A stretch of DNA of 20,497 nt from a virus: IMG/VR virus record IMGVR_UViG_3300035487_000257, positions 1 through 20,497 of that record; one strand, given 5' to 3'. This document shows, one piece after another, positions 7,802 to 18,385 of the stretch. The notes below the pieces were generated by a model. The model saw only the letters and a list, made by a program, of their open reading frames with translations. It was not told the DNA's origin and made no database searches. A program made the translations under genes and the position numbers. Numbering within the stretch: the stretch's first letter is position 1; each line of letters begins with the position of its first letter.

Positions 7802-9967
7802 ATGTCAAAAATGTCACAACAGGATATTCAAAGCGCAATTAAAACGGCTATTCAATCAGCCATTGATTACGTTGATTCAGATATTGCAGACCAACGAGAA
7901 CGCGCTCAAAGCTACTTTGACGGCAATGTTGACTTAGAGCATGAAGAGGGTCGTTCTAGGGTAGTGTCTACTAAGGTGCGTGATGTGGTGCGTGGTGCAA
8001 AGCCTAGCTTAATGCGTATCTTTATGAGCAATAATAAGTTTGTGGAATTTACGCCTAAAGGCCCAGAAGATGTGGCTAACGCAGAACAGGCTACAGCTTA
8101 TTGTCATTGGGTGTTTAACAAAGTAGGTGGCTATAACGTATTAAGTAATGCGATACATGACTCCCTGGTTAAAAAAGTAGGCGTGGTTAAAGTCTGGTGG
8201 AACCAAGAAACCATTGCTAAAACGTACACCTATGAAAACTTGTCAGACCAAGAAGTACAGGTATTGGTTAATAAAGAAGGTGTTGAAGTTGTAGAACATC
8301 GACAAGAAATAGAAATGGAAATGGACGAGTTCGGCTTAGATGTTGAACGCAATGTTCACAGTATGGTTATTACGCACAAATATGAAGAGGGCGAAATGGT
8401 CATTGAGGGGATTCCCCCAGAAGAGTTTTTCATTGATGGTTCAGCCAAGTCGATTGATGATGCGTATATTTGCTGTCACAGAAGCGAGAAACGCGCAGGC
8501 GATCTAGTGGCTATGGGTATTGATCAAGACGTTGTTGATAACCTAAACGGCTCAGATAACGATTCATTGATTGGCAATGTTGAAAAGATACAGCGATTTG
8601 GTGATGCAGTTCAAGACGATGAAAGTGTAGAAAATGACCCATCTATGCGCCTGGTTCTTGTCACAGAGGCTTATCTACGCATTGACGCAGAAGGTGACGG
8701 CATACCCACTTTGCACAAGTTCTTATGTGGCGGCACTGATTACGAAGTATTAGAAATGGAACCTTGGGACAAAGCCCCGTTTGCTGATTTCCACGTTGAC
8801 CCAGAACCCCATGCCTTTTATGGACGCTCACTAGCTGAGTTAGTGATTAACGATCAAGACACCACCACTAGCGTACTGCGTGGCATATTGGATAACGTAG
8901 CATTGGTTAACACCCCACGCCTTGAAGTTAATGAGGATTTGGTGGAAATGGACGATGTGCTAAATAACGAGATCGGTGCAATCATTCGCAGTGAGCAAAT
9001 AGGGTCGATTAACCCATTAACAGTGCCTTTTGTAGCAGGCTCCACACTGCCAGCATTGCAATACCTTGATATGCTAGTTGAAGAGAAAACAGGCATTAGT
9101 AAAATGAGCATGGGCCTTAACGCTGATATGCTTCAAAACACCTCTGCCACCGCAGCCGCATTGACCGCACAAGCTGGCGCAGGCCAAGTAGAAGTCATGG
9201 CTAGAAACCTCGCAGAAGGGACAAAGCGGTTATTCCAGCTAATGCTACACGTTGCCGTTAAAAACTCGCCAGACGAGCAAATGATGCGTTTAAACGGGCA
9301 GTTTGTACCTGTTGACCCTGCCATTTGGGATAGCAGTATGGATATGGAAATTAATGTCGGTTTAGGCACTGGGCAAGAAGATGCCAAGGCCGCAGCACTG
9401 ATGCAGACTTTCCAAACTCAGCAGCAAATTTGGCAAACATACGGGCCTCAAAACGGCTTAGTTTCAATGACACAAATGCGTAACACTTTATCAGATACCT
9501 TGGCATTAAGTGGGTTCAATAATGCAGATCGTTATTATGCACCTATGAATCCTGAGACTGAACAACAGATCATGGCTCAAATGGCAGAGCAAGCCGCACA
9601 AGCCGCGCAGGGTGAGCAGGGCGACCCAATGGCTCAAGCATTGATTCAAGCTGAACAGATCAAAGCACAGGCTAAAATGCAGGGCGATCAAATGCGTCTA
9701 CAAGGCAAGATGCAAGGCGATCAAATTAAGATGCAGGCTGATATGCAAGTTAAAGCCGCACAAATGCAATCTAAGCAGGGCCAAGAACTGGCTGAATTGC
9801 AGCTTAAATATCGTGAATTGCAGGCCAGTGATGATTTAGAACGTGATCAAATGAATCAGGACTTGCTTGTTGAAGCCGCTAGGATATTGGGTCAATACGG
9901 CACAGCCGTTGACGTTGAACGCGTTAAATCAATGCAAGCAGCCCCACGAATGGGTAATGTTCAATGA
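7802..9967 (+). CDS. Portal protein (P22-like)
   Basis: This 721-residue protein has the order expected of P22-type portals. The N-terminal part has YFDGNVDLEHEEGRSRVVST and VRDVVRGAKPSLMRIFMSNN (about 38-78), then HWVFNKVGGYNVLSNAIHDS and VVKVWWNQE. A central wing has EEFFIDGSAKSIDDAYICCH and TEAYLRIDAEGDG. The clip/crown region has PHAFYGRSLAELVINDQDTT and EKTGISKMSMGLNADMLQNT. The last ~130 residues are Gln/Ala/Met-rich with repeated KMQGDQ units and probably form the extended C-terminal barrel. Portals form a dodecamer at the capsid vertex through which DNA is packaged and ejected. It is coupled to the next gene through ATGA. Confident by pattern and by scaffold/capsid context. Confidence 0.9.
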   Translation: MSKMSQQDIQSAIKTAIQSAIDYVDSDIADQRERAQSYFDGNVDLEHEEGRSRVVSTKVRDVVRGAKPSLMRIFMSNNKFVEFTPKGPEDVANAEQATAYCHWVFNKVGGYNVLSNAIHDSLVKKVGVVKVWWNQETIAKTYTYENLSDQEVQVLVNKEGVEVVEHRQEIEMEMDEFGLDVERNVHSMVITHKYEEGEMVIEGIPPEEFFIDGSAKSIDDAYICCHRSEKRAGDLVAMGIDQDVVDNLNGSDNDSLIGNVEKIQRFGDAVQDDESVENDPSMRLVLVTEAYLRIDAEGDGIPTLHKFLCGGTDYEVLEMEPWDKAPFADFHVDPEPHAFYGRSLAELVINDQDTTTSVLRGILDNVALVNTPRLEVNEDLVEMDDVLNNEIGAIIRSEQIGSINPLTVPFVAGSTLPALQYLDMLVEEKTGISKMSMGLNADMLQNTSATAAALTAQAGAGQVEVMARNLAEGTKRLFQLMLHVAVKNSPDEQMMRLNGQFVPVDPAIWDSSMDMEINVGLGTGQEDAKAAALMQTFQTQQQIWQTYGPQNGLVSMTQMRNTLSDTLALSGFNNADRYYAPMNPETEQQIMAQMAEQAAQAAQGEQGDPMAQALIQAEQIKAQAKMQGDQMRLQGKMQGDQIKMQADMQVKAAQMQSKQGQELAELQLKYRELQASDDLERDQMNQDLLVEAARILGQYGTAVDVERVKSMQAAPRMGNVQ

Positions 9968-10191
9968 TCTTAAAAGAGCAGGCTAAAAATTTACTATCGA
10001 ATGAGACTTTTTTGGAAGTTTTTGTTAGTCTACGAACAAATCAGTGTAATGTTTTCTTACATTCAAAGGCTGATGAAGTTGAAAAACGAGAAGAGGCCCA
10101 TGCAATGTTAAGGGCTTTAAACGAGTTCGAGAATGTCTTGAAGCGTGTAGTTACCGATCAAGATATGAAAGATAAACGTCTTAAAAAATAG
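9964..10191 (+). CDS. Small conserved protein between portal and scaffold (75 aa)
   Basis: The 75-residue helical protein begins MILKEQAKNLLSNETFLEVF and contains KREEAHAMLRALNEFENVLK (about 41-60), ending in a Lys-rich tail. It starts at an ATGA overlap with the portal stop, so it is translated with the portal. Short proteins with 'A..LL....F......L' followed by '..REEAHAM.RAL' regularly occur at this position in podovirus head modules. Their role is not established to my knowledge. An assembly or head-completion accessory is the natural guess. No metal-binding or membrane features are seen. Confidence 0.75.
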   Translation: MILKEQAKNLLSNETFLEVFVSLRTNQCNVFLHSKADEVEKREEAHAMLRALNEFENVLKRVVTDQDMKDKRLKK

Positions 10192-10200
10192 GATAGCACC

Positions 10201-11187
10201 GTGGAAACGACTACCCCAGTAAGTGTAGAAAGTGCAGCAGAAGCACTATTAACTCCAATGGAGTCAGAAGCAACCGAAGTTAACGAAACTGAAACCGAAG
10301 TGGCAGAAGTTGAAGAAACCGAGGTTGAGCAAGAATCAGAGTTGGAAACTGACGATGATGCAGAATATGCAGAATTAGAAGATGAAGATAATGATGAAGT
10401 TGAATATGAAGAGTCGGACGAGGAACAAGCCGATCAAAGTGGGCCTGAGACATTTTCCATTAAAGTTGATGGGGAGCAAGTGTCAGTAACCCTAGATGAT
10501 CTAAAGCAGAGTTTTTCTGGACAACAATATATTCAAAAAGGAATGAAGCAGGCGGCAGAGGCGCGAAAGCAAGCGGAGGAAGCCTATAACGGCTTAAACC
10601 AACAGCGACAGCAACTTGACCAGTTTATGCAAAGAGTAGGGCAAAAAGGTTTGATGTTAGAACCCACTCCACCCACAAAAGAACTTCTGAATAGTGACCC
10701 GTTAGGGTACATCGAAGCAGATGCGACTTATCGTGAAGAGATGGGCCAATACCAAATCGAACAGCATGAATTAAAGCAGAACCATGAAGCAATGAAGGTA
10801 GAGCAAGCAAAGGCTGATAAAGCCAACTTGGACTACAATTTTGCTGAACTCAAACGAGTGCTTCCCGATTTTGCGGATGCTAATAAAGCAACCAAAATGA
10901 AGGAAAGGTTACTCAAGCAAGGTATTGCAGAAGATTATACTGCCGAAGAAATTGGCGGCATTATTGATTACCGCGCAATGCGAGTTCTAAACAAGGCAAG
11001 GCTTTATGACCAAATAATGGCAGGCAATTCAACAGTTGAATCTAAGCTGAAAAAAGCCCGTCCATTGATGAAAGCTGGAACAAAGAAAATGCCCGATTCA
11101 GCAGCAAAGAAACAACGCCAGCAACTATCCAAGTTGAAAAAATCAGGCAGCATACACGATGCAGCCGCATTATTGTTCAATAGTTAA
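10201..11187 (+). CDS. Capsid scaffolding protein, GTG start
   Basis: The frame starts at GTG (10201) with an AGGAT site just upstream. Residues about 20-80 are extremely acidic (dense Glu/Asp). They are followed by a short beta unit (FSIKVDGEQVSVTLDDLKQS, about 85-104), a long predicted coiled coil from about 110 to 215 (for example MKQAAEARKQAEEAYNGLNQ), and a basic C-terminal segment (KLKKARPLMKAGTKKMPDSA, about 280-300). An acidic N-terminus, coiled coil and basic capsid-binding tail, placed between portal and major capsid genes, is the hallmark of scaffolding proteins that template procapsid assembly and then leave. Recognised by architecture and position rather than by a catalytic motif; no protease domain is visible. 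Confidence 0.85.
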   Translation: METTTPVSVESAAEALLTPMESEATEVNETETEVAEVEETEVEQESELETDDDAEYAELEDEDNDEVEYEESDEEQADQSGPETFSIKVDGEQVSVTLDDLKQSFSGQQYIQKGMKQAAEARKQAEEAYNGLNQQRQQLDQFMQRVGQKGLMLEPTPPTKELLNSDPLGYIEADATYREEMGQYQIEQHELKQNHEAMKVEQAKADKANLDYNFAELKRVLPDFADANKATKMKERLLKQGIAEDYTAEEIGGIIDYRAMRVLNKARLYDQIMAGNSTVESKLKKARPLMKAGTKKMPDSAAKKQRQQLSKLKKSGSIHDAAALLFNS

Positions 11188-13757: not shown

Positions 13758-14198
13758 ATGAGTTGGCTTAGTTTTTTAAACCCGATAGCAAGTTTAGGAA
13801 GCACCTATTTAGAGGGCAAGAACCAGGTTGCCAAGGCTAAGTCAGCAGCAGCCATAATAGGTATCGAAGCAGAGGCAGACGTTAAGGTGGCAGGGGCAAA
13901 AGCGGCTCACAAGCTGGCTGATGATGGTCAGACGCAAGACTATAACCTTGACTACATTGCTATGCAGCAAATGGACAAGAGTTATGTAGACGATATTATG
14001 ATTGCGCTACTGCTTGTGCCAGTGGGTGCTTCATTCTTAGGGTATCAAGAAGAGGTTACAGCAGCCTTTGAATCATTTGCTGTTATGCCAGATTGGTATC
14101 AGTATTTGATTATCGGAATTTATGTGGTCAAGTTTGGCCTACGCGGTTTGCTAACCAAGCTAGTGTCGGGAAAACTTGGCGGCATTAAACTTAAATAA
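13758..14198 (+). CDS. Holin-like membrane protein (146 aa)
   Basis: I use ATG 13758, directly after the endolysin stop, instead of an in-frame upstream start inside the endolysin gene. The product begins MSWLSFLNPIASLGSTYLEG, then has an Ala/Lys-rich amphipathic helix (about 22-55). Two hydrophobic segments follow: MIALLLVPVGASFLGYQ (about 81-97) and YQYLIIGIYVVKFGLRGLL (about 114-132), with a basic tail after them. The 'MP.WYQ' segment before the last helix and the basic C-terminus resemble the phage 'holin of 3TMs'-type proteins. Position next to an endolysin without a signal peptide supports a holin role. It is the last + strand gene and is followed by a terminator. Confidence 0.7.
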   Translation: MSWLSFLNPIASLGSTYLEGKNQVAKAKSAAAIIGIEAEADVKVAGAKAAHKLADDGQTQDYNLDYIAMQQMDKSYVDDIMIALLLVPVGASFLGYQEEVTAAFESFAVMPDWYQYLIIGIYVVKFGLRGLLTKLVSGKLGGIKLK

Positions 14199-16702: not shown

Positions 16703-16719
16703 TTTCCGAATATACAGTG
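16703..16719 (+). repeat. 17-bp direct repeat, probable integrase arm site (left)
   Basis: TTTCCGAATATACAGTG occurs here and again, identical and in the same orientation, at 16920-16936, one on each side of the tRNA-like core. Direct repeats flanking a core are typical of arm-type sites bound by the N-terminal domain of tyrosine integrases. Confidence 0.7.
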
Positions 16720-16768: not shown

Positions 16769-16777
16769 TGTTCGGAA
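16769..16777 (-). repeat. Inverted TTCCGAACA element, possible integrase arm site
   Basis: On the minus strand this reads TTCCGAACA, identical to the 9-mer at 16899-16907 on the plus strand. It lies between the left 17-bp repeat and the core. A related TCCGAACA occurs at 16511-16518. Confidence 0.5.
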
Positions 16778-16817: not shown

Positions 16818-16864
16818 GATTGTGATTCCGGTGGTCGTGGGTTCGAGCCCCATCGTCCACCCCA
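16818..16864 (+). other. attP: attP core: 3' half of a tRNA-His(GTG) gene
   Basis: The segment reads as the anticodon loop TTGTGAT (anticodon GTG at 16822-16824), the 3' anticodon stem TCCGG, a variable loop, a T-arm GTGGG-TTCGAGC-CCCAT, the acceptor strand CGTCCAC, discriminator C and encoded CCA (16862-16864). The C discriminator plus the GTG anticodon identify tRNA-His. No D-arm or 5' acceptor strand lies upstream, so this is a fragment and not a functional tRNA. Phages that integrate into tRNA genes carry exactly such a 3' portion so that the host gene is restored. Phage genes on both sides indicate attP rather than attL/attR. Confidence 0.85.
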
Positions 16865-16898: not shown

Positions 16899-16936
16899 TT
16901 CCGAACACTTCCGAATATTTTTCCGAATATACAGTG
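16899..16936 (+). repeat. Tandem TTCCGAA elements, probable integrase arm-site cluster (right)
   Basis: Three copies, TTCCGAACA (16899-16907), TTCCGAATA (16909-16917) and TTCCGAATA (16921-16929), lie in a row. The last is part of the 17-bp repeat shared with 16703-16719. They sit between the core and the integrase 3' end. Spacing is 10 to 12 bp from start to start, roughly one helical turn, as expected for cooperative binding. Confidence 0.65.
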
Positions 16937-16959: not shown

Positions 16960-17967
16960 CTATTTTAGGGTGGGAGTTACTTTGATTTTGCGATCATAGA
17001 TTGCCACTTGAGCCGCAGTCTTGTGACCCGAAAATTCTTGCTTATTACCCTCATAGTCAGAAATGGCCTTTGCCTTAATATCGTGAAAGGTAAAATCAAT
17101 ATTTAATTCACCATCATAATTTAGCTTTGCTTCTTTTCTGGCGTCTAATGCCCAATGCCTTAAACAGCCTTGAGTGGGTTGATAACCATTTGCGTCACAA
17201 AATACTAAATTAAAATTAGTAATCTTTTGAACGGACAAAGCCAAATCAACAGCCGCTCTTAATCTAGGGTTCCATTCTTTAATTTGTTGCTTGCCTGTCT
17301 TGCCTTGTTTGATGTAAATGCCACTTTCTAGTAACTGGCTGCGCGTTAAACTCCACACATCACCTTGTCTAGCCGCACAGCAGTAGCTTATTTCCATTGC
17401 CGCAGCTAATAAAGGCCACTTAATATAAGCCTGGTTAAGCCACAGGTTGTATTCCCAATCTTCTATGTATCGCTGTCTAGGTGGCTCAGTAAACTTTTTA
17501 ACGCCTTTAACGGGGTTCATACTTACTTTGCCATTCTCATAAGCCCAACTAAAGACTGTGCTAAGAAATGATTTCTCACGATTGGCCTGTGTTATTACGC
17601 CAGCTTCTTTGCGCTTATCCATGTATTGTCGAATGTGGTGAGGTTTGATTCTATGGCGGTTCATCTTTCCAAACACCAAACTTAATTTATCACCATATTC
17701 TGCATAGTCTTTGCGTGTTCGGATTGCCAAACTTTTGTAATTGACGCTTGCCAGATATTGACGGATTAATTCGGAAAACGCACCCGTGGGTTCCTCATGC
17801 AGTAACCGAGCAGCATTATACTTTGCCAGCACAACCTCTTTAGGCTCAGTTAACTTGCCCAGACGCACACAGCCACCGCTTTTAGGGCGGTATTCATAGG
17901 CTGACTTGCCTATATAGCACCGCACAGGTAGCCATTCTGGGCCTTTGATTCGTTTTCTAGGAGACAT
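16960..17967 (-). CDS. int: Tyrosine-recombinase integrase
   Basis: This 335-residue protein has an N-terminal arm-binding region (about 1-60), a SAM-like core-binding domain (about 63-160, including TRKDYAEYGDKLSLVFGKMN) and a C-terminal catalytic domain. Active-site residues visible are Arg200 in CCAARQGDVWSL, Lys223 in IKQGKTGKQQ, His295 in FHDIKAKAISD, His315 in FSGHKTAAQV and the nucleophile Tyr324 in VAIYDRK. The usual second arginine of HxxR is lysine here (Lys298), a variant I recall in related phage integrases. It catalyses recombination between attP and the host tRNA-His site; attP lies immediately downstream. It is last in the early operon, directly after a DUF4224 gene. Confidence 0.9.
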   Translation of the reverse strand: MSPRKRIKGPEWLPVRCYIGKSAYEYRPKSGGCVRLGKLTEPKEVVLAKYNAARLLHEEPTGAFSELIRQYLASVNYKSLAIRTRKDYAEYGDKLSLVFGKMNRHRIKPHHIRQYMDKRKEAGVITQANREKSFLSTVFSWAYENGKVSMNPVKGVKKFTEPPRQRYIEDWEYNLWLNQAYIKWPLLAAAMEISYCCAARQGDVWSLTRSQLLESGIYIKQGKTGKQQIKEWNPRLRAAVDLALSVQKITNFNLVFCDANGYQPTQGCLRHWALDARKEAKLNYDGELNIDFTFHDIKAKAISDYEGNKQEFSGHKTAAQVAIYDRKIKVTPTLK

Positions 17968-17969
17968 AA

Positions 17970-18188
17970 TTAACCCATTGCCGAAAAGTCTGGTTCGTCA
18001 TTATGCGCCAAGGATTCGCTGAACCGCAAATGCGTAGGGTTGTTAAACGAGTACCAGGTGACATGAGGTGTGCCGTTAGCATCTTTCATAAAGAATATGC
18101 CGTGGTCACTTAACACCTTGCACTGCTTGGCTTGTGCTTTGTATCCTGTCACCTTTTCAAGATCACTTTCACTAATTAAATCATTCAT
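17970..18188 (-). CDS. DUF4224 family protein, integrase-associated (72 aa)
   Basis: I start at ATG 18188, which overlaps the preceding stop as ATGA; an in-frame ATG five codons upstream lies within the previous gene. The product begins MNDLISESDLEKVTGYKAQA, followed by KQCKVLSDHGIFFMKDANGT and HVTWYSFNN. That is the DUF4224 pattern ('..L.D.DL..ITGYK....Q...L...GI.F....G.P.VTW'). This small domain is repeatedly found just upstream of phage integrases and may help control recombination direction, like an excisionase. That role is inferred from gene neighbourhood and is not established. Two nucleotides separate its stop from the integrase start. Confidence 0.8.
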   Translation of the reverse strand: MNDLISESDLEKVTGYKAQAKQCKVLSDHGIFFMKDANGTPHVTWYSFNNPTHLRFSESLAHNDEPDFSAMG

Positions 18189-18385
18189 TTTCTGCAATCC
18201 CATTCTTCTATTTTAGTGCTAGGGCTTAAACCTAGCTTTACTCTGTCTTTAGGCTGAGAGTTTGGCGGCATAACCTTTCTAGCCCATTTTACTTTTGCTC
18301 CACGTCTGTTTAGTTCATCTACTAATGATTGGTCTGACACCATTGTTATTGGCACAGGAACTTCTATCTTGACGCTTTTATTCAT
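18185..18385 (-). CDS. Hypothetical protein (66 aa) of the early operon
   Basis: The 66-residue product begins MNKSVKIEVPVPITMVSDQS, followed by LVDELNRRGAKVKWARKVMP, and ends SPSTKIEEWDCRK. The first part has alternating hydrophobic residues (a short strand), then a 'D..LV.EL.RRG' helix that recurs in small phage and bacterial proteins. It is basic overall, so DNA or RNA contact is possible. It begins in a TAATG overlap with the HTH-like gene upstream and ends in an ATGA overlap with the DUF4224 gene. No specific function is recognised. Confidence 0.65.
   Translation of the reverse strand: MNKSVKIEVPVPITMVSDQSLVDELNRRGAKVKWARKVMPPNSQPKDRVKLGLSPSTKIEEWDCRK

Follow-up and report, generated by a model that had tools for sequence, protein, structure and literature searches.

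The segment at positions 16818–16864 of the window, i.e., of the whole 20,497-base stretch analysed here (a linear record of a marine bacterial virus), is read as the attachment site (attP) of a phage that is temperate and podovirus-like and has head proteins of the SU10 type. Integration would involve a lambda-type integrase, five arm sites, strand exchange in the anticodon loop of tRNA-His, and a DUF4224 excision factor, and the probability of this reading is put at about 0.94. It is based on the core, the arm array, the gene set, the tRNA restored in silico, the free-phage arrangement, and relatives that include chromosomal attL sites at other tRNAs.

THE tRNA-His HALF

The 47-base segment GATTGTGATTCCGGTGGTCGTGGGTTCGAGCCCCATCGTCCACCCCA (16818–16864, plus strand) occurs once in the window and is the core of a lambda-type attP. 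It corresponds to positions 30–76 of complete 76-base tRNA-His(gtg) genes at 100% identity (47 of 47 bases; E about 4e-22), and comprises the 3' side of the anticodon arm, the variable region, the T arm, the 3' strand of the acceptor, C73 and CCA. The earlier note had described a tRNA-His 3' half of this length with GTG, C discriminator and CCA, and its coordinates and all of these features are correct. The identity between attP and attB has its left limit at base 16818. On the 5' side of the core the window reads AACCCTCA, which has no match to the 5' half of host tRNA-His, ending in GAGCCCCG in most hosts; the identity therefore begins at the anticodon stem. The right phage flank beyond the core is CTTTCAGCGATAGCCC.

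No tRNA gene is called by ARAGORN in the window alone or at the opposite junction constructed in silico. When the segment is joined to the 5' halves of real tRNA-His genes, the program calls tRNA-His. The attP carries the tRNA 3' half from the anticodon stem to the 3' end, all 47 bases matching, and in silico its integration would restore tRNA-His, which places it among tRNA-targeting sites of the anticodon-loop class. Williams, in 2002, reportedly described tRNA-targeting prophages and islands with crossover in this loop. Class A elements in Islander likewise have an attP with a tRNA 3' half that restores the gene (PMC4383910); there is no difference in principle, the member in the window using tRNA-His. 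The tRNA attP of the window is thus an ordinary, well-formed example of a known arrangement. The strands are probably exchanged within the anticodon loop, and the predicted 7-base overlap is TTGTGAT (16820–16826, plus strand; GTG at 16822–16824), as suggested by the limit of attP/attB identity and by the spacing of the far-side arm sites, which agrees with it.

It is most improbable that the tRNA is not restored by integration and that the phage relies on a tRNA of its own. Actinobacteriophages whose cores are short, about 10 bases, provide known cases of such tRNA-dependent lysogeny (PMC10865867), and a near relative of the window phage carries a tRNA gene, but the present core extends over 47 bases to CCA and restores tRNA-His in silico, no tRNA gene is present in the window, and the tRNA of the near relative is Ser, not His.

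ARM SITES

The motif TTCGGAA is found in five copies within 320 bases around the core, compared to 0.1 expected. Three putative arm sites are arranged in tandem between the integrase gene and the core (16899–16928, minus strand), including GTTCGGAA at 16899–16906 and ATTCGGAA at 16909–16916 and 16921–16928. Beyond the core, the repeat search identified one putative site in the opposite orientation (GTTCGGAA, 16770–16777, plus strand) and one in the forward orientation (ATTCGGAA on the minus strand, 16704–16711, within TTTCCGAATATACAGTG). The five positions and the tandem layout recur in the His-type relatives, with one altered tandem copy in L071 and the last site missing from contigs that end early. 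Predicted arm sites that flank the core, three on one side and two on the other, and are conserved in relatives are characteristic of lambda-type attP, as is the presence of an excisionase gene (DUF4224, phrog_1266).

Measured from the centre of the anticodon loop, the reversed far-side site is at +46 or +47 and the forward one at +110 to +112 whatever the tRNA and the octamer, in all attP sites where they were found (BUCT708 showed the reversed one only). The integrase-side copies are spaced by 12–13 and 10–11 bases, with two copies in ZF40 and four in mEp390, and they are not at a constant distance from the loop, which is about 81 to 143 bases away from the copy nearest to the core. In the Cys-type sister clade all five copies read TTAGGCG at the same positions; four copies were seen in L079, a Cys-type contig in which a reading frame is inserted between the integrase and attP. 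TTCGGAA arm sites are also common to L093 and L096 (G039), whose integrases are 48–53% identical to that of the window and have no intact tRNA adjoining.

It is hardly credible that the segment has nothing to do with integration and is what decay or truncation left of a phage tRNA gene. Genes for tRNA-His do occur in phages, with a match to the segment of about 83–85% in T4-like phages, but the truncation falls exactly at the anticodon stem with no 5' half left, and at least 15 relatives have the same core or one that differs by a single base. The flanking arm array and the sister tRNA-Cys half, which is truncated at the same point, refute such decay.

INTEGRASE AND GENE NEIGHBORHOOD

The tyrosine integrase (335 aa; 16960–17967, minus strand) ends 95 bases from the core, confirming that the two adjoin as previously proposed. 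It matches Pfam Phage_int_M and Phage_integrase, the latter below the Pfam gathering score, and the PHROG integrase profile (E 3e-38). The next gene (17970–18203, minus strand) encodes a 77-aa excisionase of the DUF4224 family (PF13986, E 7e-14; phrog_1266 excisionase, E 3e-22). Among solved structures the integrase profile matches only lambda Int, the nearest solved homologue, and the window shares with lambda Int/Xis a probable arm-binding/core-binding/catalytic layout, predicted arm sites to either side of the core, and an excisionase (PMC4880445). It differs from lambda in having a tRNA half as core and Lys instead of the second catalytic Arg (K298), where lambda Int reads HELR. The RKHRH pentad has been described as otherwise strictly preserved (PMC8138268). 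Lys is present at this position in 29 of 29 aligned family integrases, including those of phages mEp390 and ST64B, so K298 appears to be a family-wide variant rather than decay; R200, K223, H295, H315, and Y324 are all present in the window integrase. A structure model places three strands and a helix at residues 17–57, in the putative arm-binding region at the N-terminus, with low confidence (mean pLDDT 59), and was judged too poor for fold search.

To the left of the core are genes for portal and major capsid proteins of the SU10 families and for an endolysin, and to the right the integrase, the excisionase and an Erf-type annealing protein. An NCBIfam search with ten window proteins gave no matches. 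By capsid the nearest named genome is Octadecabacter Antarctic DB virus 2 (60% identity), which is circular and 39 kb in size; the window, a linear fragment, is therefore probably about half of the phage genome, and lysogeny genes elsewhere in that genome would be outside its view. A near-identical phage (L054; capsid 100%) carries a tRNA-Ser(tga) gene at 14111–14197, and its integrase is only 82% identical to that of the window.

FREE PHAGE OR PROPHAGE

The exact 47-mer is present in 13 viral contigs, 12 of which have the phage sequence of the window on both sides, and three further near-identical sister attP sites have the core with a one-base T-loop variant. At least 15 related viral contigs have phage DNA flanking the core on both sides, as is true of every His-type contig that spans it. 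These contigs are consequently free-phage forms and none of them is an attL or attR. This agrees with the view of the earlier note that the core, flanked by phage genes, belongs to DNA not joined to a host chromosome, and the relatives are organized alike. Neither attL nor attR was found when each flank was searched separately; phage-host joined sequences are possibly under-represented, as viral collections may trim host DNA. One viral-collection contig (L057, 12748–12798) ends inside a host-type tRNA-His with a 3' flank resembling Marinobacterium iners, and may be a host-bordered element.

The core is very unlikely to be the attL or attR of a prophage in a contig with host DNA. A tRNA 3' fragment also marks attR (PMC4383910), but here the core has phage DNA on either side, conserved in 12 or more other contigs, and its array of five arm sites is complete, whereas true attL copies are without the two far ones. 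Such copies are represented by chromosomal or prophage relatives which have three integrase-side arm sites beside a full tRNA, the far pair being absent: a decayed integrase in G112 (tRNA-Cys), L087 (tRNA-Leu(caa)), and 689R5 (tRNA-Ser-CGA). Their retention of the integrase-side sites only is the pattern expected of attL after integration.

PROPOSED INTEGRATION

In the favored model of tRNA-His integration, the N-terminal domain of the integrase would bind the five arm sites and its core domains the anticodon stems of tRNA-His, and the strands would be exchanged across the anticodon loop. The host 5' half and the 47 phage bases would then form a complete tRNA-His beside the integrase gene (attL), leaving the gene unbroken, and the host's own 3' half would be displaced to the far end of the prophage (attR). 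Excision would likely depend on the DUF4224 protein. The exact crossover point, the protein-DNA contacts and lysogeny by the window phage are predicted elements of this model.

CANDIDATE HOSTS

The exact core had been proposed earlier as a host tag, a proposal that fails. Exact copies of the 47-mer occur in about 40 genomes (46 stretches) of gamma- and betaproteobacteria from several orders, not one clade, including Marinobacterium, Pontibacterium, Neptuniibacter, Chromatiales, Lysobacterales, Legionellaceae, and marine Burkholderiales, and the search gave no pair of empty and occupied sites at tRNA-His. Identification of the host by the exact core is thus ruled out, a tRNA core of 47 bases being too conserved to name the host alone.

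The core or its T-loop variant is present in 21 of 116 genomes of the Marinobacterium family. Exact matches to the T-loop variant of the three sister attP sites are found in G101, G107, G108, G110, and G112, and G112 additionally has, next to tRNA-Cys, a Cys-type integrase that is decayed and contains stop codons. These two observations make this family a fair guess for the host, with about an even chance of being right, and are a weak pointer. Past CCA, the window bases TTACC match Marinobacterium over five bases and the group of G107, G108, G110, and G112 over four, which is too short to decide on the host. Six attP variants (L049, L050, L056, L058, L060, and L072) have CTATGT after CCA, compared to TTACCA in the window, and the CTATG variant has no match longer than two bases to the host tRNA-His flanks examined. 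A second tRNA-His-like match in G102 was rejected as an att site, being a full tRNA.

No close integrase was found at tRNA-His in 116 family genomes, 20 core-bearing host genomes and 369 genomes of the class, which are small samples, and no lysogen occupies tRNA-His in the genomes searched; the sister type is present at tRNA-Cys. In the search for prophages, the major capsid had no match in 390 genomes of the order, and the portal none in the 116 family genomes or in 12 chosen genomes.

RELATIVES AND TARGET SWITCHING

In the integrase tree, 15 His-type proteins are grouped (support 99/98) beside seven Cys-type proteins (100/99), and the two groups are joined at 100/100. The Cys-type integrases of the marine attP contigs L078, L080–L083, and L085 are 62–69% identical to that of the window, and the attP layout is shared; L081 and L083 have a related SU10-type portal and capsid too. 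These contigs differ from the window in their core, which is a tRNA-Cys(gca) half (91% identical to a host gene), and in their five TTAGGCG arm sites instead of TTCGGAA. In L079 (integrase at 9916–10917) a reading frame that by eye is HNH/AP2-type endonuclease-like lies between the integrase and the Cys-type attP, about 1–600 bases past the integrase stop, and attP is shifted by about 590 bases. The decayed integrase of G112 (L216, 3270–4170) has stop codons and adjoins an intact tRNA-Cys, and is joined upstream to a gene region that by eye is of spore-coat/fimbrial type; it is a prophage remnant from which most of the element has been deleted.

More distant members use tRNA-Leu (mEp390, ZF40, L087) or tRNA-Ser (ST64B, KpF5, Chris1, BUCT708, 689R5), each with their own octamers. 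The integrases of mEp390, ZF40, ST64B, KpF5, Chris1, and BUCT708 are 41–46% identical to that of the window; a DUF4224 excisionase is present in several of these phages, and the arm layout and the far-side spacing are shared, whereas the tRNA and the arm octamers are different. In mEp390, the annotated attP is at the equivalent place relative to the homologous integrase.

The anticodon stems of tRNA-His and tRNA-Cys both read GGA-7-TCC, so that little more than the overlap and the T-arm half might have to change in a switch between these targets. Integrases with ATTCGG arms have Arg27 and Cys33 (R27 and C33 in the window), and those with ATTAGG arms have His27 and Ser or Ala33, a pattern spotted post hoc in about six lineages. 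As a tentative generalization, with odds somewhat against it, attP in this family could be a rigid frame in which two parts are exchangeable, the tRNA half and an arm octamer present in about five copies; these copies would change together, at constant spacing, while the integrase lineages diverge and move to other tRNAs, and residues 27 and 33 of the arm-binding domain may read part of the octamer. Taken alone, the window site is a textbook tRNA attachment site, and its value is comparative: the His and Cys sister phages, with the same layout and different tRNA and arm sequence, provide a natural series on the change of integrase target and the co-evolution of arm recognition.
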